The notes beneath the pieces are model-generated. The model searched no databases and was not told the origin of the DNA. It was given only the letters and a program-made list of their open reading frames with translations. From contig NHDG01000061.1 in NCBI GenBank assembly GCA_002167285.1, forward strand, positions 1-45,910: a stretch of 45,910 nucleotides of DNA. The letters are read 5' to 3'. Of the stretch, positions 5,074-45,759 are shown one piece after another. The stretch is from Planctomycetia bacterium TMED53 (lineage in GTDB: Bacteria; Planctomycetota; UBA8108; UBA1146). Position 1 is the stretch's first letter. Each line of letters starts with the position of its first letter. Position numbers and translations under genes: made by a program.

Positions 5074-5784
5074 TCAGGAACCACCACCGGTGGCACGTGC
5101 TCTGGAAGCACCGACGTTGTTGGCTTTGCTACGACTGTCGCTGATATTGGGTTTACCGTTTTTGCCCTTCGAACCGAGGAGCCCTGAACCCTGTCAGCAA
5201 CCCCCTGGCAGAGGCAATGCTTTCAATTCTGCCAGATCCATACGCTCGAGCCAGATGACTGATTCGACATTCTTTTTGAGGTCAGCGGCATTGGCGAGGT
5301 TCTTCTTTTCCGCTTCTTCAGCGAGGAGTCGGAAGTGCTGGCGCGCCTTTTCTGCTTCTGGCTTCCAGATCTCCGGCTTGGCTCCTTCGAGGCGAAGCTT
5401 CCAAGTTGCAAAGTACTGGGCAGCCGCGATTTTAGCGCGGGCATCGTCGGCGAGATTCGGTTGATCCTTCGCCGCTTCATTCATGACTTCTTCCATCGCC
5501 GTGATGCCAGCCCAAGTATTGCCACTCATAAAGTCGGCGTGACTGGTTTGTAGACGCAACCAAAGAATCGCTTCCTGATCGTCATCGGGAACATCGGCGA
5601 GTGCTTGTTGGTAGAGCTCGACTGCTTTCTTCCACTCCTCTGCTTCAGCGCAGATTCGCGCTTCTTCAACGGTGGAAGAGAGACGGGTGCGGGCTTGTAG
5701 ATCCTGCCCAGGTCCGAACCACCAGATCGCGACGAGCACTGGAATCACGGCCCACAGTGTCCAAAGAGTTTTTCTTCGATTCAT
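5074..5784 (-). CDS. Candidate selenoprotein: membrane-anchored TPR protein (BatC-like) with in-frame TGA
   Basis: The ATG at 5784 follows a GGAAGGA ribosome-binding site. Residues 1-25 hold one membrane helix (LWTLWAVIPVLVAIWWFGPG) and the rest is helical and TPR-like (EEWKKAVELYQQAL). Its place after two vWA genes is that of the TPR protein BatC. A TGA at 5194-5196 follows ALPLPGGC. The frame then stays open for 39 codons (QGSGLLGSKGKNGKP... to ...RATGGGS) and ends at a second TGA, 5074-5076, just before the terminator. If TGA is read as Sec the protein has 236 residues with Gly-Cys-Sec at 195-197, similar to the C-terminal redox motif of mammalian thioredoxin reductase. A SECIS-like hairpin follows at the right distance. 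Without recoding the product is 196 residues, ending in Cys. The gene is certain; Sec decoding is inferred from the hairpin, the open frame and the SelW gene in the same window. Confidence 0.75.
5164..5182 (-). promoter_or_regulatory. Putative bacterial SECIS element for the TGA at 5194
   Basis: On the minus strand, GCTCCTCG-GTT-CGAAGGGC folds into four pairs (one G-U), a C-A mismatch, three pairs and a GTT loop. The loop starts 20 bases after the TGA. Known bacterial SECIS elements have a small apical loop with G in the first two positions, about 16-37 bases after the UGA, and this one meets both rules. It matches the SelW hairpin of this window in every stem and loop length. Confidence 0.65.
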
Positions 5785-11494: not shown

Positions 11495-11878
11495 ATGGCC
11501 CCTGAGCATTTTTGTTTGATTGTGGCAGGATGGGAAATAGCGATAGGCATTCCTTTGTTATTTCGTAGGCAGCGGTTTTTGCAATGGCTGGAGAGGGTCA
11601 GCCATGACACTTCCAAAATGAGGGTCTTCCTTGGGGGCTGGGTGGCGATCGGTGTCGCAGCGGTGATGGGGAACCCTTATCCAGCGTGGGATCTAGTCGG
11701 AATCCTCAGCCTTCTTGCATGGGTGACGAGTGTCAAGTGCGCGATCGGGGTCATATGGACTGACAAATTGATTCGAATCTCTCTAAGCATGATGAAGAAG
11801 GGCTCTCCTGGCCTCGGCGGCTTCGTTGTCGGTGTTGGCCTTGCGCTCATCTATGCTTTTGTCAGCTTAAAGTCTTGA
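11495..11878 (+). CDS. Small four-helix membrane protein, unknown function
   Basis: 127 residues with four hydrophobic segments: about 6-23, 43-60, 65-90 and 105-125. AGGAAG lies very close before the ATG. I do not recognise the family. It is followed after 38 bases by three lipoprotein genes in the same direction and may share their transcript. Its basic loops (LLFRRQRFLQWLERV, MMKKGS) suggest an inner-membrane protein. Confidence 0.7.
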   Translation: MAPEHFCLIVAGWEIAIGIPLLFRRQRFLQWLERVSHDTSKMRVFLGGWVAIGVAAVMGNPYPAWDLVGILSLLAWVTSVKCAIGVIWTDKLIRISLSMMKKGSPGLGGFVVGVGLALIYAFVSLKS

Positions 11879-11916
11879 TTCAGTACCCTTGTTTTCAAAT
11901 CGTCCGCGGAGGTGCC

Positions 11917-12888
11917 ATGAAGCATTTTCAGATTTTCATGCCGAAATGGGCTCAGCTCTGCTCAATCTTAATTGCACTTGTTGGGTGTGCTCCGCAGCAA
12001 CAGTCGGCTTCGTTATATGTTGCCGCTGAAGTAGAGAGTTTTGTCGAAGGCGGCCAAAAAATCAGTACCGAGGCCATCGGAACGGTATATCTGGGCCCAC
12101 CCCTTTTGCATGCAGAATATGTAGGCCAAGAGAGAATCTACATCAGCGATGTGACATTTGTAGAAGATGAGAACAAGCCGTTTTTACTGTTGAGCCCCCA
12201 GATGTTTTTGCAGTTTGCAATGAGGTCTGAAGAATCGAAGGGGATGTCGGTAGAAGCGTATCTGAAGCAGCTCGAAAGTGATGAACTGCAACCGGGGAAA
12301 TCAGTTTATTTGGTTGCTGAAACAGAAGATGCGAAAATCGTGCACAAGTTGAAAATCGGATACAGCAACGATTCTAAGGGTGTTTTTCTTTTATACCCCT
12401 TTCAGGGTTATCCGACTCAAAGCATGCGCAACAGCAATCAGTTTGAGATCAGGGAATTACTCGATCAGGCCGACGAGGATGCAACAGAAGTTCAAAGTTG
12501 GAACAAAAGCCCGAATGAATTACTCCATGTAGGCGATCCTCTGTTTCCAATAGGGCGTGTGCAAGTCGCCATCGAAAATTCACTTCGCCTGATGGAGCGA
12601 AGTGACTTGAGGGTCCAAAGAGAGAAGGATGGTGTTCAAGCCCATCCAATTTATTCGGATATATGGAGCTGCAAACCAGTGATAGCAACTTGGGTTGAAG
12701 ACGGCAATCTGGTTGGGGAGAAAGCATATCTATGGCCCTCGTCACCAGGCTTGCACATTGAGATTGAATCTATTGAAGAACTTCATCAGATCAGGAATGA
12801 CTTTAAGCGGCTTAAGTACAGTGGGTTTTATAAATCTACTGAGGGGTTTTTTAAGGGAAACCAACCTGGAAGTCAGGGGTCACTCTAA
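11917..12888 (+). CDS. Lipoprotein, first of three tandem paralogues
   Basis: 323 residues. The ATG at 11917 follows GGAGG. The signal peptide ends in the lipobox LVGC (Cys24). The mature part shares with the next two genes an N-terminal segment (VEGGQKISTEAIGTVYLGPPLLHAE in pattern), a middle segment of the type MSVEAYLKQLxSxxLxxGKxVYLVxE, a C-terminal segment (AYLWPSSPGLHIEIE) and the last residues QGSL. I know no such family. It should be anchored to a membrane through Cys24. The family looks like a planctomycete-type lineage-specific lipoprotein set. Confidence 0.8.
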   Translation: MKHFQIFMPKWAQLCSILIALVGCAPQQQSASLYVAAEVESFVEGGQKISTEAIGTVYLGPPLLHAEYVGQERIYISDVTFVEDENKPFLLLSPQMFLQFAMRSEESKGMSVEAYLKQLESDELQPGKSVYLVAETEDAKIVHKLKIGYSNDSKGVFLLYPFQGYPTQSMRNSNQFEIRELLDQADEDATEVQSWNKSPNELLHVGDPLFPIGRVQVAIENSLRLMERSDLRVQREKDGVQAHPIYSDIWSCKPVIATWVEDGNLVGEKAYLWPSSPGLHIEIESIEELHQIRNDFKRLKYSGFYKSTEGFFKGNQPGSQGSL

Positions 12889-12991
12889 GGGAGCTCTTGT
12901 CCTTTAGATTGCTTCTAATCTCGAGGTAGTCTTCTGATACAATCTCTCTCCCGCCATGATTGAGCCTCTTTCAAATGACTTTGGAGTGCCG

Positions 12992-13957
12992 ATGAGGATG
13001 AGTCGTAGTTCGTCAGCTCTTCTGATTACAGCGATGGCAAGTGTGCTTTTGATGAGTGGATGCAAAGTAGAAGCTCCATCGATGAAGATATTTGTCACTT
13101 ATGAATCGCCAGAGCCAGTTGATGGCGGCTCGACGATATCTACTGCAAAACTTGGGACTGTTCACTTAGGTCCTCCATTATTAAAAGCTAATTTTGTGGG
13201 TAGCGAGGAGGTCGATTTTAAGGAGATCTCGCTCCCGCATTTTGAAGAGCATTTTTTGTGTCTGGGGCCGCAAATTTTTCTTCAATCAGAAATGAAAACG
13301 AATCGGTCAACGGGTATGTCCATGGAAGAATACCTGAACGGTATGAGTAGCGAGTTCTTGCAATCAGGGAAAAGGATCTATTTGGTGATAGAGTGCGATG
13401 GCCGAAGAGTTGCACACCAATTGAAGATTTCACAAAGGGACGACCCCACCGGCTTGTTTATTCAATACTCAACTCCCTATGGGTCGCAGGGTAGGCGTAC
13501 TCAGGTTGAGTTTTTGGAGCCGCTAGAAGCTCCTGACGATTTCTCAAAGAAAATCCGGATTTGGAATTCAGATTCGAATCAAACGCTCAATGGAGGAGCT
13601 TTGGTGTTTCGAGTAAGAGGAACTTCTTCGGTAGGGTTTTACAAAAGAGCCAAAGATGTCGGCATTGATACCTCGAAGAAGGACAAAGACAGCATTTCTA
13701 CAGATCATATGTATTCAGATACATGGTTTTGCAAAGAAACGATCGCGACCTGGAAAGACTCATCAGGGAATTGGGTAGGCGAGAGAGCATACCTTTGGCC
13801 TTCTGTTCCAGGCTTGCATATTGATATGGATGACCCCGAAGTGATCAATGATCTTAGGGCCGATCTGCGGAGCTTTGAGCGCTTTCGTTTTAATATCAAT
13901 TGGGGCCGTATCGGTTTTACCAAGAACGGGGCTTCTTCAAAAGGAGGGGCATTATGA
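12992..13957 (+). CDS. Lipoprotein, second of three tandem paralogues
   Basis: 321 residues. The ATG at 12992 has GGAG five bases upstream; an in-frame ATG at 12956 lacks one. The lipobox is LMSGC (Cys24). Shared segments are VDGGSTISTAKLGTVHLGPPLL near residues 40-61, MSMEEYLNGMSSEFLQSGK, AYLWPSVPGLHIDM near the C-terminus, and a final GGAL. Of the three it is most like the first gene. Its TGA overlaps the ATG of the third gene, so the two are translationally coupled. Function unknown. Confidence 0.8.
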   Translation: MRMSRSSSALLITAMASVLLMSGCKVEAPSMKIFVTYESPEPVDGGSTISTAKLGTVHLGPPLLKANFVGSEEVDFKEISLPHFEEHFLCLGPQIFLQSEMKTNRSTGMSMEEYLNGMSSEFLQSGKRIYLVIECDGRRVAHQLKISQRDDPTGLFIQYSTPYGSQGRRTQVEFLEPLEAPDDFSKKIRIWNSDSNQTLNGGALVFRVRGTSSVGFYKRAKDVGIDTSKKDKDSISTDHMYSDTWFCKETIATWKDSSGNWVGERAYLWPSVPGLHIDMDDPEVINDLRADLRSFERFRFNINWGRIGFTKNGASSKGGAL

Positions 13958-15066
13958 AACGCTGGATAGTGCTCATGACTTTCTCTGTCCTCGCATTAGT
14001 GCTCTCGAGTTGCATGCGCAGTCAACATACTCCTGTGGGTAGTTCATACAAGATTTTAATAGCGGCGAAAGTAGATCAACCCGTTGAAGGTGGAATCTCT
14101 GCAAAGACAGGATCCTTAGGTTTAGTGCATTTGGGAAAGCCTCTCCTTGCTGCTGAGTTTCAGCATGACATTCACCAGAGTAATTTTATGCACGGTCAAA
14201 GATTCCATTTCATAGATTTTTCGATAGAGAGTCTTGAACCCCAAAGAGTTCTGAATTTGCCGCCAACTTTGTTTTTGAATCGTGAAGGCGTCAAGGGTAT
14301 GGAAGCGGATGTCATCCTTGAGCGGCTCAAGAGTGAGGAGCTTGCCACCGGCAAGCAGGTTTATCTGATTGTGGAAACAGAAGCCAATCGAGTAATTTTT
14401 GCACTAAGGACAACGCGGTTAGATCACCCCGACTACGTTTTCATTCAGAAAAATTTTGATTATTTAAAGTGGGATTACAATTCCCGAAGAGGTGAATATG
14501 AAGTGCGGCAAAGGAAGAGCGAGCAAGATAAAGATTCAACAGGCTTTCCTAGATCACCTCAGTCGCAAACAGGTGATGGATCTGGCGAAGGAGCCGCTGA
14601 TGAATTTTTGTATGCCGGGGAAAAACTATTCAAGGTCACTAGTTATGGCTGGTCTTCAGGTATGCCTTCCCGGGTAAAAATCAAAAATGACGGAAAATCT
14701 ACAGGTTTCTCAATAGAAGAGCTGCAATCACTTCATGGGGAGAGAGTGGTTTTGACCTGGCAAACCAATGACCCCCAAAGGCTGGTGGGGATTCCGAGAG
14801 CGTTAGGGCGACCATCGAATCGTCAGCAGGGAAGTTCAAGTCGACAATCCTCTGATTCTGAGGAGGCATATGGAGATGGGATTCCCAGGGTTGCAGCAAG
14901 CGCGATTTTCTGGTCATCGATACCGGGGCTCCACTTTGAGATGGATCAACCTTGGAGATTAGACGAAATCAGGCGAGATATCCGTAACCTCGGCATTGAT
15001 GGTCTTCAGTGGATGACGATCGATTACAGTCCAGGTGGAGTGTCTACGAGTGGCGGTTCCCTCTAG
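13954..15066 (+). CDS. Lipoprotein, third and longest tandem paralogue
   Basis: 370 residues. The ATG at 13954 follows AGGAGG and overlaps the previous stop. The lipobox is VLSSC (Cys20). It keeps the family segments VEGG...GLVHLGKPLLAAEF, LKSEELATGKQVYLIVE, SSIPGLHFEMDQPW and a final GGSL. It differs from the others in having two hydrophilic serine/glutamine-rich insertions (about residues 195-220 and 290-320), the second reading SNRQQGSSSRQSSDSEE. These are probably surface loops or disordered linkers. Function unknown. Confidence 0.8.
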   Translation: MKRWIVLMTFSVLALVLSSCMRSQHTPVGSSYKILIAAKVDQPVEGGISAKTGSLGLVHLGKPLLAAEFQHDIHQSNFMHGQRFHFIDFSIESLEPQRVLNLPPTLFLNREGVKGMEADVILERLKSEELATGKQVYLIVETEANRVIFALRTTRLDHPDYVFIQKNFDYLKWDYNSRRGEYEVRQRKSEQDKDSTGFPRSPQSQTGDGSGEGAADEFLYAGEKLFKVTSYGWSSGMPSRVKIKNDGKSTGFSIEELQSLHGERVVLTWQTNDPQRLVGIPRALGRPSNRQQGSSSRQSSDSEEAYGDGIPRVAASAIFWSSIPGLHFEMDQPWRLDEIRRDIRNLGIDGLQWMTIDYSPGGVSTSGGSL

Positions 15067-19188: not shown

Positions 19189-19238
19189 TTTGGCTGCATG
19201 ACTTTGGCTGCATGACTTTGGCTGCATGACTTTGGCTG
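19189..19238. repeat. 14-base tandem repeat upstream of recQ
   Basis: TTTGGCTGCATGAC occurs three times exactly (19189-19202, 19203-19216, 19217-19230), followed by TTTGGCTG. The array ends 15 bases before the recQ GTG, just ahead of its ribosome-binding site, so it lies in the leader or promoter region. Each unit contains GCATGAC. It is a likely variable-number repeat by slippage. Confidence 0.9.
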
Positions 19239-19253
19239 TAGGGGGGAGCAAGA

Positions 19254-21125
19254 GTGTCCGAGTCCATTTTGGACATCCCAACCGGTGGGAGTGCTGAGGA
19301 AGAACCTCCTTCGCAAGCGATCCGCGATGCAGCCGGAATTCTCCTTCAGGAAGTCTTCGGATACGAATCTTTTCGAGGTCCTCAAGAGAAGGTCATCGAA
19401 CGGGTCGTCAGTGGTGGCGACGCCCTCGTATTGATGCCTACCGGTGGGGGCAAATCGATCTGCTACCAGATTCCTGGATTGATTCGCCAGGGGCTCACCG
19501 TGGTGGTCACGCCGACGATCTCCCTGATGCAAGATCAAGTTGCAGCTTTGGTTCAAGCAGGCGTATCCGCAGCAGCGTTGAATTCTTCAATGGAGGCAGA
19601 TGATCGTCGAAGAGTCTGGGCGAAGCTGCACGACGGCGAAATCAAGATCCTGTACCTCGCTCCGGAAAGGCTTCTCCTCGAAGGATTCCTCGATCAGCTG
19701 GGCGACTTCAACCCTGGGCTCTTTGCTATCGATGAAGCCCATTGCATTAGTCAGTGGGGGCATGATTTTCGTGCTGAATATCAACAGCTGGGGTCGCTAA
19801 GACAAAGATATCCGCAAGTTCCAGTGATCGGTTTGACAGCGACTGCAGACCCTCAAACGTTGAAGGACGTCTTAGGTGTTTTGCAGATGTCAAAAGAAGA
19901 TGTTTTTTCAACATCGATGAATCGTCCGAATTTGCGATATCTGGTGGAACCGAAAGATCAACCTCGCAGGCAGCTATTACGCTTTATCAAAGATCGTCAC
20001 GCCGGAGAAGCGGGAATCATCTACTGTGGTTCACGCAAAAAAGTCGAAGACACGGCAGAGTGGCTGCGCAAGGAAGGAATCCGTGCAGTCCCTTATCACG
20101 CCGGTATGGAAAACCAGCAGCGGTCGCTGAATCAGCAGTTGTTTCAAAGGGAAGAGGGGATCGTCGTTGTCGCGACCGTGGCATTTGGTATGGGGATCGA
20201 TAAGCCCAATGTGCGCTTTGTTGCTCATCTCGACATGCCTGAAAGCCCACAGCACTACAGTCAGGAGTCTGGCAGAGCGGGGCGTGATGGGCTTCCAGCC
20301 GAATGTTGGCTCTGTTACGGCTGGCAAGATGTGATGATGGCTCAAAGGCGCCTTGCCGAGGCTGAGCTGGATCAGAGTCAGAAACAGATTCGGCGCCATC
20401 AGATTGATGCAATACTGGCATATTGTGAGACGGCGGAATGTCGCAGGGCCAACATGCTGCGTTTCTTTGGAGAAGAAGCAGACTCCTGCACTACCGACGA
20501 TCAAGGTTGCGATAACTGTTTAAGTACTGTTGAAGTTTCCGATGGTACGGTGCTCGCGCAAAAGTTGCTTTCTGCAATTTCTCGAACCGGGCAAGTGTTT
20601 GGCAAAGCCCATGTCATCGACGTCCTTACCGGGAATGCCACTGAGAAAGTTGCAAAGTTTGGCCATGATCGATTGAGCGTTTACGGGATTGGCACCGAAC
20701 TAGATGAAGCGGGCTGGCATTCCGTTTTTCGGCAACTCGCTTCGATGGGCTTGGTGCGAATCGATCTCGAAGGACACAACGGAATTTCTCTTGATCCCAG
20801 TTGTCGAAAAATACTTCGGGGTGAAGAGAAGTTTTCGTTTCGGAAAGACCGATTGCCAAAAAAGGCGAAGCGAAAACGAAAGAAGAAAAAAGAACTGGGC
20901 CTCGATGCGATGCAGGCGAGTCTCTTCGAGCGATTACGGCAGCACCGGTTGGAGCTATCCCGCGAACTGGAAGTCCCGCCCTACACGATTTTTCACGATT
21001 CTACCCTCGTCGAAATGTCTCAATTGAAGCCCCAAACTCTCAGTCAAATGTCGATGATTTCCGGAGTGGGCCAAAAGAAACTGGAAAAATGGGGGCAGGG
21101 GTTCCTCGAAATCATCACCGCATAA
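19254..21125 (+). CDS. recQ: RecQ family ATP-dependent DNA helicase
   Basis: 623 residues from a GTG start with GGGGGGAG seven bases upstream. Domains in order: RecA-like domain 1 with Walker A MPTGGGKS and DEAH box [15 protein letters not shown]; RecA-like domain 2 with [10 protein letters not shown] and ESGRAGRDG; an RQC zinc site with cysteines in [12 protein letters not shown]...DSC...GCDNC; a winged helix; a basic linker ([12 protein letters not shown]); and a C-terminal HRDC domain ending in [13 protein letters not shown]. It unwinds DNA 3' to 5' in recombination repair and replication-fork rescue. It is a single gene. Confidence 0.96.
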
Positions 21126-21238
21126 ACCCCCTCTTCGCATTCCTCAATAGTTCAAAATAAAAGGCCAATTGCACTTTGTGATTGGAGATACTTTCCGACC
21201 TGAGTTCGTTTATATTTGTGCCATGAACTGGGGGAAGA

Positions 21239-22351
21239 ATGAACTTTGGTGATGGTGCTCAACGAAAGCGTTTGTTCAGTGATCTAAATGACACTCTGAT
21301 TCATTTCGGTCTCGTCATTCTTCTGGTGCTGGTTTGTCTGAAAATCTTTTCTCCATTTCTGGGTGTAATGCTCTGGGGAGTGATATTGGCAGTCGTCCTG
21401 TATCCCCTGCAGCAGTTGATGGCAAAGAAGATGAAAAACCACCAGGGATACTCTTCCACCCTGCTGGTGTTGTTCGGGTTGATCATCATTGGCGTTCCAA
21501 CATTCATGTTGGGGGCTTCATTTTCAGAATATGCATTTGATAAATACGAAACATGGAGTTCAGATTCTTTTTCTATCGAGCCTCCACCGGCATCGGTTTC
21601 TGAGTGGCCTGTCGTCGGTTCGATGGTGTCAAACCTGTGGTTGCAGGCATCAGAAGACCTCCCCCAGTTCTTGGAAAAAATTAATCCGCAATTAACAGAG
21701 ATTTCCAAGGGAATGCTCGCCTCTATTGCGAATACGGTGAGCTCTCTTCTTAAGTTTCTGGGAGCATTGATCATCGCCGGAATCATGATGGCGTATGGGC
21801 AATCGGGGAGTGACTCCATTCGAAAAATACTGTGCAGACTGACTTCACCTGAGAAGGGCCCGGAATTGCATCAGCTATCAACTTTGACGATCAGGTCGGT
21901 AGCCTTGGGTGTGGTGGGCGTTGCATTTGTTCAATCACTTTTTCTCGGTCTTGGATTCGTATGGGCGGGCATACCTGCAGCGGGAATATTAGCGGTGTTG
22001 TCGTTACTGTTCGGAATCGCACAGCTTCCCGCTTTGGTCATCACCCTTCCGGTGATCATTTATGTCTGGGCGACGGGGGATACCTCAACAACTCACAATG
22101 TGCTGGTCACGGTTTACCTGGTGGCTGCTGGACTCTCCGATGGTTTCCTGAAGCCTTTGCTTTTGGGTAGAGGAGTAGAAGTCCCGATGCCGATCATTTT
22201 GTTGGGCGCGTTGGGTGGGATGTTTACCTACGGATTGATTGGTTTGTTTTTAGGCGCAGTGGTGCTGGCATTGGGCTACCAGCTCTTCATGGAATGGGTC
22301 GGTAATCCAACGACTGAGGTTGCTGAAGCCAAACAGGCCTCTGGTGAATGA
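21239..22351 (+). CDS. AI-2E family transporter
   Basis: 370 residues; the ATG follows GGGGGAAG. The layout matches the family (PF01594): paired N-terminal helices, a long soluble segment (about 100-150), then five or six helices with AGIPAAGILAVLSLLFGIAQLPA and a final IGLFLGAVVLALGYQLF. Members include the TqsA exporter and Na+/H+ antiporters, so the substrate is open. It lies five bases before the outer-membrane factor gene and is probably in the same operon as the efflux genes. Confidence 0.9.
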   Translation: MNFGDGAQRKRLFSDLNDTLIHFGLVILLVLVCLKIFSPFLGVMLWGVILAVVLYPLQQLMAKKMKNHQGYSSTLLVLFGLIIIGVPTFMLGASFSEYAFDKYETWSSDSFSIEPPPASVSEWPVVGSMVSNLWLQASEDLPQFLEKINPQLTEISKGMLASIANTVSSLLKFLGALIIAGIMMAYGQSGSDSIRKILCRLTSPEKGPELHQLSTLTIRSVALGVVGVAFVQSLFLGLGFVWAGIPAAGILAVLSLLFGIAQLPALVITLPVIIYVWATGDTSTTHNVLVTVYLVAAGLSDGFLKPLLLGRGVEVPMPIILLGALGGMFTYGLIGLFLGAVVLALGYQLFMEWVGNPTTEVAEAKQASGE

Positions 22352-41592: not shown

Positions 41593-42285
41593 TCAAGGAA
41601 GATCGAAGAGAAGCAAATCGGCTTTTGTTAGAGCGGTAATGGAAAATTCCTGTGCACCTTCCAATGCGATGCCGTCACTGCTTTGCAAGATGTCGTTATT
41701 GATTTTGATATCCCCAGAAATCACCTGAATCCAATGGCCCCTTGTGGATTCCAAAGAGACCTCGATGGACTCATTTGGTTCCATCTCACGTCGATAAATT
41801 TTTGCGTCCTGGCAAATTTGCAGCGAGTTCTCTTCTCCGGTTCCTGAGACGAGAAGTTGCCATTTCCCATTTCGATCTTTAGCGGGAAAGTGGCTTTGGT
41901 CATAGCGGGGTGCGATCCCTTTTTCCTTTGGGGTCAGCCAAATCTGATAAAGGTGAGCAGATTCCGCAGCACTGTTCTTTTCACTATGAACGATGCCACT
42001 GCCGGCACTCATCACCTGCACCTCTCCTTGGCGAATGACGCCCTTGCTGCCGGTGGAATCTTCATGGGAGAGGGCACCATCCAATATGATGGTGATGATT
42101 TCCATTTCTCGGTGGGGATGAGAGGGGAAGCCCGTATTACCTGCGATGCGATCTTCATTCATCACGCGAAGGCATCTCCAGCCCATCCAATCAGCATCGA
42201 GGTATTCACCAAAGCTGAAGGTGTATCGCGCTTCGAGCCAGCCATAGTTTGCTGAACCTCTTTCGCCAGCGAGACGCAGTCTCAT
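41593..42285 (-). CDS. Pirin family protein
   Basis: 230 residues. The ATG at 42285 overlaps the TGA of the upstream peptidase gene. The pirin pattern is clear: ERGSANYGWLEARYTFSF, CLRVMNEDRIAGNTGFPSHPHREMEIIT and SAGSGIVHSEKN. The metal ligands His56, His58, His100 and Glu102 are in place, so it is a bicupin with a likely Fe-binding N-terminal site, as in quercetinase-active YhhW. The C-terminal cupin is shorter. It converges with trkH, 13 bases apart. Confidence 0.94.
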   Translation of the reverse strand: MRLRLAGERGSANYGWLEARYTFSFGEYLDADWMGWRCLRVMNEDRIAGNTGFPSHPHREMEIITIILDGALSHEDSTGSKGVIRQGEVQVMSAGSGIVHSEKNSAAESAHLYQIWLTPKEKGIAPRYDQSHFPAKDRNGKWQLLVSGTGEENSLQICQDAKIYRREMEPNESIEVSLESTRGHWIQVISGDIKINNDILQSSDGIALEGAQEFSITALTKADLLLFDLP

Positions 42286-43646
42286 ACCGTTGAAAGCTCT
42301 TCCAGAAGCCATGCCATCGTCTCGATACCTTTTTGGTAGTCGGGGAGATGAAACTTTTCATTGGGGGAATGGGCGTTGTCATCAGGAAGCCCGAGGCCGA
42401 GGAGGATCGTATCCATTCCAAGGGTGGCTTTGAGATCGCTGACCACGGGGATAGAGCCCCCTTCTCGAATCATCACCGGTGCTTTGCCAAAACCTTTTTC
42501 GACGGCTCGAGATGTCGCATCGAGCCACGGGCTGTTTTGTTCAACGAGGACAGGCTTGGCTCCATGATGGCAATGCACATCGATGGTGCAGGTGTCGGGG
42601 CAAATCGACTTCAGGTGATTCAGGACGAGATCAGCGATTTCATCGGGATCTTGATCTGGAACCAGGCGCATCGACATCTTGGCACTGGCATGGGCAGGGA
42701 GAACGGTTTTAGCACCTTCCCCAGTCCAGCCACTGAGCAGCCCATTGATATCGAGAGTTGGACGAGCCCATTTTCTCTCCAAGGTTGAGAAGCCCGCTTC
42801 TCCGTGAACTCGGGGAACTTCCAGATCTGATCGGAAACCTTCTTCATCGAAGGGTAATTTTTGAATGGAGGCGCGCTCGTCATCGGTCAAATCACGAACA
42901 CGATCGTAGAATCCAGGAATCGTGATGCGCCCTTCTTCATCCCGCAAACTTCCGAGCATTCTCGTCAGTGCGTTGGCGGGATTTTCGACGGCGCCACCAA
43001 AGGATCCGGAGTGCAGATCTCGATTGGGCCCTTGGACAAAAATTTCCAAATAGACCAACCCCTTTAGGCCTACTGTGATCGCCGGCATTCCTGGCCCGAA
43101 CTGGGAGCAATCGGCGATCAAAGCGACGTCGGCGGCGAGTTCATCTTTGTGAGCTTCCAAGTAGGAGGCGAGATTTGGCGAACCGATCTCTTCTTCTCCT
43201 TCGATGACAAATTTGACGTTGATCGGCAGGCTTCCCCGGGAGCGCAGGACACCGCAGACTCCCCTGACCAATGCGAGGGCTTGGCCCTTGTCATCGGTGG
43301 CGCCGCGGGCGATGAGATCTTCCCCTTCAAGGGTGGGCTCAAAAGCGCCATGTCGCCACAGATCCAGCGGCTCTGGTGGTTGAACATCGTAGTGGCCGTA
43401 GATCAGCAGAGTGGGTGCACCCTCGGATCCGGTCCACTGGGCGACACAGATGGGGTGACCTTCAGTGTCATCGAGGCGGGTGTCGAAGCCTGCGGATGCG
43501 AGCTCTTCCTCGATCCATTGCCCTGCCCGGCGAACTTCTCCTTTGAGCGTGGAGTCGGTCGAAACACTGGGAATTTTCAGCCATTCGATCAGTTTTTCGA
43601 CATGCTGCGACTGCTCAGAGGCCAATTGATTGACGACATCCTGCAT
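42282..43646 (-). CDS. M20 family dipeptidase
   Basis: 454 residues. Active-site motifs: YGHYDVQPP (His85, Asp87), ARGATDDKG (bridging Asp near 117), and FVIEGEEEIGS (catalytic and metal-binding Glu near 150-152). A dimerisation domain lies at about 190-330 (LHSGSFGGAVENPANAL) and the last metal-binding His is in NAHSPNEKFHLPDY. This fits the M20A/carnosine-dipeptidase-like subgroup of cytosolic di-zinc dipeptidases. It is coupled to the pirin gene by stop-start overlap. Confidence 0.94.
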   Translation of the reverse strand: MQDVVNQLASEQSQHVEKLIEWLKIPSVSTDSTLKGEVRRAGQWIEEELASAGFDTRLDDTEGHPICVAQWTGSEGAPTLLIYGHYDVQPPEPLDLWRHGAFEPTLEGEDLIARGATDDKGQALALVRGVCGVLRSRGSLPINVKFVIEGEEEIGSPNLASYLEAHKDELAADVALIADCSQFGPGMPAITVGLKGLVYLEIFVQGPNRDLHSGSFGGAVENPANALTRMLGSLRDEEGRITIPGFYDRVRDLTDDERASIQKLPFDEEGFRSDLEVPRVHGEAGFSTLERKWARPTLDINGLLSGWTGEGAKTVLPAHASAKMSMRLVPDQDPDEIADLVLNHLKSICPDTCTIDVHCHHGAKPVLVEQNSPWLDATSRAVEKGFGKAPVMIREGGSIPVVSDLKATLGMDTILLGLGLPDDNAHSPNEKFHLPDYQKGIETMAWLLEELSTV

Positions 43647-43816
43647 ATTCTTGCTCTCGCTTTCCCGGTCTGCTGGAACACCTGTCCACTGTTCCGTAAC
43701 ATAAACTCCAATGCTCCGGGTTGGGAGTCGCTGTTGTCGGAATCCCTGATAACGGCGCAGGTTTTTTGAGTCTCTCCTGATTTTTTATGAGTCAGGGCGA
43801 AAGGAAAAATAAGCCG

Positions 43817-44044
43817 ATGGATATCAGCATCGAATACTGCGTAAAGTGAAACTACACCCCCCAGGCCACCAGTTTGGCGGCCGACTTGAATGAAAAGTAT
43901 GGTGTAGACGTTCGCCTCATCGAAAGTGGCGGTGGAGTTTTTGAAGTGGTGATCGATGGAGAATTGGTTTTCAGCAAAAAAGAGCTGAGCCGTTTCCCAG
44001 AGCACTCTGAGATTTATTCGGCGGTGGATTCCCGCCAGGCATAG
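43817..44044 (+). CDS. SelW-like selenoprotein (Rdx family), TGA-encoded selenocysteine
   Basis: 75 residues including Sec. The ATG at 43817 has AAGGAA about ten bases upstream. The N-terminus MDISIEYCVK is followed by TGA (43847-43849) and then NYTPQATSLAADLNEKYGV, so the thioredoxin-like CxxC position reads Cys8-Val-Lys-Sec11. The rest matches the Rdx/SelW fold: GVDVRLIESGGGVFEV, VIDGELVFSKKELSRFPE. The frame ends at TAG. A standard gene caller would miss this gene because of the TGA. SelW-like proteins are small cytosolic redox proteins. A SECIS-like hairpin lies just after the TGA. It is followed by ettA after 32 bases. Confidence 0.93.
43864..43882 (+). promoter_or_regulatory. Putative bacterial SECIS element of the SelW-like gene
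   Basis: GGCCACCA-GTT-TGGCGGCC forms four pairs, an A-C mismatch, three pairs and a GTT loop. The loop starts 23 bases after the TGA, inside the usual 16-37 range, with G in the first loop position as bacterial SECIS elements need. SelB should bind it to deliver Sec-tRNA. Confidence 0.85.
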
Positions 44045-44076
44045 CCGCGCATTTGCCGAAGGAAACGAGTGACAAG

Positions 44077-45759
<1,683 letters not shown>

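Follow-up and report, generated by a model that had tools for sequence, protein, structure and literature searches.

Positions 43817-44044 of the window, that is, of the whole 45,910-nt stretch of DNA analysed here, almost certainly encode a functional SelW-like (Rdx) selenoprotein, in which selenocysteine (Sec) would be inserted at the UGA of codon 11 by way of SelB and a SECIS element. The gene shows that this planctomycete lineage, which would be marine to judge from the isolate names of relatives, decodes UGA as Sec, and TGA-ended ORFs in its MAGs therefore need re-reading.

The SelW-like gene and its product

The features discussed are collected in Table 1. The frame opens with the ATG at 43817 and counts ten codons before the TGA and 64 after it, ahead of the TAG at 44042-44044, so that the coordinates given in the original prediction are exact. 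When the TGA is read through, the product is MDISIEYCVKUNYTPQATSLAADLNEKYGVDVRLIESGGGVFEVVIDGELVFSKKELSRFPEHSEIYSAVDSRQA. Under translation table 11 the frame ends after 10 codons and a plain ORF call misses the gene, as had been anticipated for standard annotation. The miss is only partial, though, since the protein exceeds the cut-off of an NCBIfam '(seleno)protein' model (NF041051, see below). An antisense ORF (43589-44005) was considered as an alternative reading and found to be without support, the sense frame being under purifying selection 3′ of the TGA; the claim that the region cannot be read as one gene in any other way therefore stands. A/G-rich stretches also precede the start of the gene in relatives.

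Table 1. Features of the window, with coordinates and the evidence for each
Feature	Position	Strand	Description and evidence
SelW-like selenoprotein gene	43817..44044	+	75 codons + TAG stop, one in-frame TGA; translation, Pfam Rdx, NF041051, dN/dS, AlphaFold, Foldseek
CxxU redox motif TGC GTA AAG TGA	43838..43849	+	Cys codon 43838-43840, Sec codon 43847-43849; TGA aligned in relatives
Shine-Dalgarno-like AAGGA	43801..43805	+	11 nt 5′ of ATG; sequence
Putative bacterial SECIS hairpin	43864..43882	+	14 nt from UGA to stem, apical loop GUU 43872-43874; fold, covariation, synonymous randomisation, codon constraint
M20 peptidase, divergent neighbour	42282..43646	-	Pfam; position kept in family and order (tblastn of relatives' loci)
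ABC-F-type ATPase, downstream	44053..45759	+	Pfam: two ABC_tran + ABC_tran_Xtn; position kept in family and order (tblastn)
Candidate selenoprotein gene	5077..5784	-	TGA 5194-5196 (LPLPGGC-U-QGSG); last gene of MoxR/DUF58/VWA operon; conserved TGA, Cys counterparts, downstream hairpin

With the TGA read through, the protein matched Pfam Rdx with an E-value of 8.1e-20 (71.3 bits, cut-off 22.6), NCBIfam NF041051 (SelT/SelW/SelH family (seleno)protein) with 97.3 bits (cut-off 88) and TIGR02174 with 60.4 bits (cut-off 34.2). The near-perfect Rdx/SelW match around CxxU that had been recognized from the sequence is thus far beyond chance. Cys8 and Sec/Cys11 are invariant across 37 aligned SelW-like sequences, and the solved relatives of the product include Atu0228, SAV_2001, MIEN1 and, weakly, mouse SelW. 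An AlphaFold model computed from 37 window and locus sequences had a mean pLDDT of 87.7, and the best PDB matches returned for it by Foldseek were SelW-related chains (TM 0.81-0.91; E 4e-7 to 2fa8). According to this model the protein is of SelW type, with a thioredoxin-like Rdx fold. The gene order M20 peptidase - SelW - ABC-F, followed by tblastn, is kept throughout the family and likewise in G016, the single relative from the same order that was examined; the two neighbours gave no pointer to a physiological partner of the SelW-like protein.

Sec decoding machinery in the genome

The source genome is a MAG of 2.98 Mb, 83% complete, in which the Sec machinery was sought by family searches. 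One contig (C8) carries selA (20605-21699, E 3e-127), selD (19509-20435, E 1e-104) and a tRNA-Sec gene (19228-19321, 67.5 bits; identified by ARAGORN as tRNA-SeC with anticodon TCA), selD lying between the other two, and selB (E 9e-108) is found on another contig (C96:107251-109128). The selD gene in turn encodes a selenoprotein, its single in-frame TGA falling at the Sec site (YASCAGUAAKL). A second tRNA-Sec match above the cut-off (C8:2025-2114) proved to be a tRNA-Ser. The genome therefore holds the complete Sec decoding machinery, selA, selB, selC and selD, whose presence the original prediction had proposed as a check. Planctomycetes with full Sec machinery have already been described (PMC4807772).

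These genes bear on the alternative that the TGA specifies another amino acid, through a change of code (e.g. to Trp) or near-cognate read-through without Sec. The frame would open equally whatever the TGA encodes, but such genes are few and have one TGA apiece, at the position of a redox Cys, and the other genes of the window are normal-length open frames under table 11. Together with the presence of selA, selB, selD and a tRNA-Sec with anticodon TCA, and of a SECIS-like hairpin 3′ of the TGA, this makes such a recoding extremely improbable.

Conservation of the TGA and selection downstream of it

An Rdx/SelW match was found in 76 of 148 relatives, and in 75 of these 76 (Planctomycetota) a copy has exactly one in-frame TGA, so that SelW-like Sec genes are common in Planctomycetota (75 of the 148 genomes sampled). 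In all 46 TGA loci that were aligned, the TGA falls at the U of CxxU. Named genomes, scanned with a single protein as query, yielded 26 loci from several phyla, all with the TGA at the same position (26/26); they come from Planctomycetota, Krumholzibacteriia, Geobacteraceae, Thermoanaerobaculia, Tissierellia, Actinomycetota, Anaerolineaceae, other Chloroflexi and Fonticella. One locus, QNYK01000019.1, is titled 'Bacillota bacterium MAG 7', yet its SelW sequence is identical to that of a planctomycete relative (G013); this title is probably a misclassification.

SelA was present in 68 of the 75 genomes with a TGA-containing SelW gene, compared with 41 of the 72 genomes without SelW (Fisher p 3e-6). 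Among the seven exceptions, six carry SelB above the cut-off, which indicates that the missing SelA is most likely due to MAG incompleteness. The remaining genome (G087) has no convincing SelA or SelB, and this gap may also reflect genome incompleteness.

Within the genus, the codons following the TGA show a dN of ~0.07 against a dS of 1.2-1.5 (dN/dS ~0.05). That is, strong purifying selection acts on the part of the frame that would be lost if a nonsense mutation at codon 11 had cut short a gene that once encoded Cys there. Such a pseudogene would agree with the early stop of the table-11 frame, but not with the retention of the same TGA across the phylum and beyond, nor with the presence of the Sec machinery. 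Based on the post-TGA dN/dS and on the TGA kept across relatives, the gene is judged not to be a pseudogene, and we give that explanation next to no weight. In the original prediction, the absence of all Sec genes together with loss of the C-terminal part in relatives would have marked the gene as a pseudogene. Since selA, selD, tRNA-Sec and selB are all present, this does not apply, and in relatives the C-terminal part is retained whole and evolves under purifying selection.

In the comparison with Cys homologues in relatives, which had also been proposed, no true Cys orthologues of the gene were seen in the phylum; the Rdx proteins with Cys that did turn up there are paralogues of a more distant kind. 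In two class-level relatives (G028 and G021), SelW paralogues (L065 and L066, respectively) have Gly, encoded by GGA or GGC, in place of Sec (CxxG); both genomes also contain a normal TGA copy, and the hairpin described below is absent from the Gly paralogue. A second, stop-free Rdx copy was observed in three class relatives (G022, G023 and G027).

A putative SECIS hairpin downstream of the UGA

A possible fold 3′ of the UGA is GGCC-A-CCA-GUU-UGG-C-GGCC. Taken as a single sequence, this hairpin is unremarkable when compared with dinucleotide shuffles (z -1.4; equally good folds in 19 of 200 shuffles). RNAalifold returned no consensus pairs for the 43-sequence family alignment, and the window had no match in Rfam. 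The weak single-sequence folding and the RNAalifold result would be compatible with a gene that encodes a true selenoprotein, but whose hairpin is conserved through coding constraint only, with SelB recognizing something else downstream. In line with this, one of three Cys paralogues (L022) likewise folds better than its synonymous versions.

Family-wide comparison points the other way, and we consider an origin of the hairpin in coding constraint alone to be very unlikely. The helix, as named by hand, is paired in 83% of cells in the family, compared with 77% in shuffled and at most 53% in slid controls, and its covariation score is 0.28 against 0.165 when shuffled, with none of 500 shuffles scoring as high. 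When synonymous codons were randomised while keeping the protein fixed, the hairpin of the SelW-like gene was equalled or surpassed in 0.7% of the randomised versions (p 0.007); the mean z was -1.6 for 43 sequences but -0.5 for the non-TGA controls, five paralogues with Cys or Gly. Codon choice is restricted as well. The Ser at U+8 is encoded by AGY in all 32 distinct cases, as opposed to ~32% in the window's genes, and the Leu at U+9 by TTG or CTG in 41 of 41, as opposed to ~48%; the apical loop and the 3′ arm consist of these two codons. A hairpin with a G-U apical loop is thus supported by comparison, while being weak on the single sequence, and the bacterial-type SECIS hairpin of the original prediction is upheld by covariation and synonymous randomisation.

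In the family, the apical loop reads A-GUU-U, A-GUC-U or GGUCU, the last of which we take to resemble the loop of E. coli fdhF, and members of the window's own genus have an A.C mismatch in the helix, at the fifth pair from the base. The comparative SECIS of the Planctomycetota SelW-like genes can be written GCCRYC-AGU-YUGGCGGC. The synonymous-codon pattern makes it a clean comparative SECIS, which could be used to train bacterial SECIS predictors.

In the mechanism that we propose, SelB with GTP and Sec-tRNA(Sec) would recognize the hairpin through the G-U in its apical loop, and the complex would place selenocysteine at the UGA of codon 11. The product would be a 75-residue thioredoxin-like protein with the active site Cys8-x-x-Sec11, most likely a small redox sensor or thiol oxidoreductase whose Cys/Sec pair switches from selenol-thiol to selenenylsulfide and back. 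For the actual insertion of Sec and the redox cycling, we infer this course from the known bacterial Sec pathway.

Relation to known SelW-like proteins

SelW-like Sec genes were reported in the Sargasso Sea selenoproteome (PMC1088965) and in the GOS data, with 427 genes (PMC2398784), and SelW has been noted to have few homologues with Cys in organisms that use Sec (PMC1794560). Because bacterial SelW-like genes that code for Sec have been on record since 2005, the gene at 43817-44044 belongs to a known type, to which it adds a Planctomycetota member. Like the bacterial SelW-like selenoproteins (PF10262; NF041051, TIGR02174), it has a CxxU motif, ~75 aa, a predicted SECIS just after the UGA and an Rdx fold. 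There is no essential difference from them, although in the window's own genus a Lys precedes the Sec (CVKU). Eukaryotic SelW (mouse, PDB 2npb) and MIEN1/C17orf37 (PDB 2ljk) share the thioredoxin-like fold and the CxxU/CxxC site, but in eukaryotic selenoprotein W the SECIS lies in the 3′ UTR, whereas in the planctomycete gene it would lie within the coding region, directly after the UGA. The Atu0228-type Cys Rdx proteins (PDB 2fa8, 2obk, 2oka) have the same fold (TM ~0.8-0.9), but they are of CxxC form and make up a more distant subfamily, occurring as separate paralogues beside the Sec form in two relatives (G018 and G024).

A second gene with an in-frame TGA

The SelW-like gene had been put forward as support for Sec use at a second TGA, at 5194, for which there is now independent support in the form of a TGA kept in relatives, Cys in Sec-less genomes and a downstream hairpin. 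MoxR, DUF58 and two VWA genes (Pfam) precede this gene, which itself has no Pfam or NCBIfam match. Reading through the TGA adds 40 further residues (counting Sec), which hardly vary within the taxonomic family. When 294 Planctomycetota genomes were searched with a profile, homologues were recovered, and the majority of the strong ones carry a single TGA at the corresponding position; two (in G161 and G201) have two in-frame TGAs. The Sec context is GGC-U-QGSG in the taxonomic family and LPLPSQ-U-xGC-GSGRGRG in distant Planctomycetota. A conserved GC-rich hairpin with a GGUC or GGUU loop follows the UGA in this candidate selenoprotein family (loci L082, L084 and L089-L097 besides the window gene); in the distant homologues the loop is GGUC.

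In three genomes (G111, G199 and G251) Cys is found at the Sec position, the hairpin-encoding SGRGRG stretch is missing and no selB passes the cut-off. G111, the one of the three that the SelA search covered, is also without convincing selA. Three others (G071, G084 and G104) have a stop-free, Cys-containing form yet possess selA, and the Sec/Cys split is therefore not explained by the machinery alone. No description of this family was found in the papers searched, the libraries searched being incomplete. Taken together, the comparisons are strong evidence for a selenoprotein family, and we consider it likely that the genome's Sec system serves this further family, one absent from the papers searched. 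With the machinery confirmed, the gene at 5194 becomes a directly testable candidate for a new selenoprotein family. Its product could be a redox-active subunit of a chaperone-like MoxR/DUF58/VWA ('Bat'-like) complex.

Elsewhere in the window, three tandem related lipoprotein-like genes were observed at 11875-15066 (+ strand), with similar N-terminal architecture and each with a conserved stretch of the type 'GxVHLGxPLL'.
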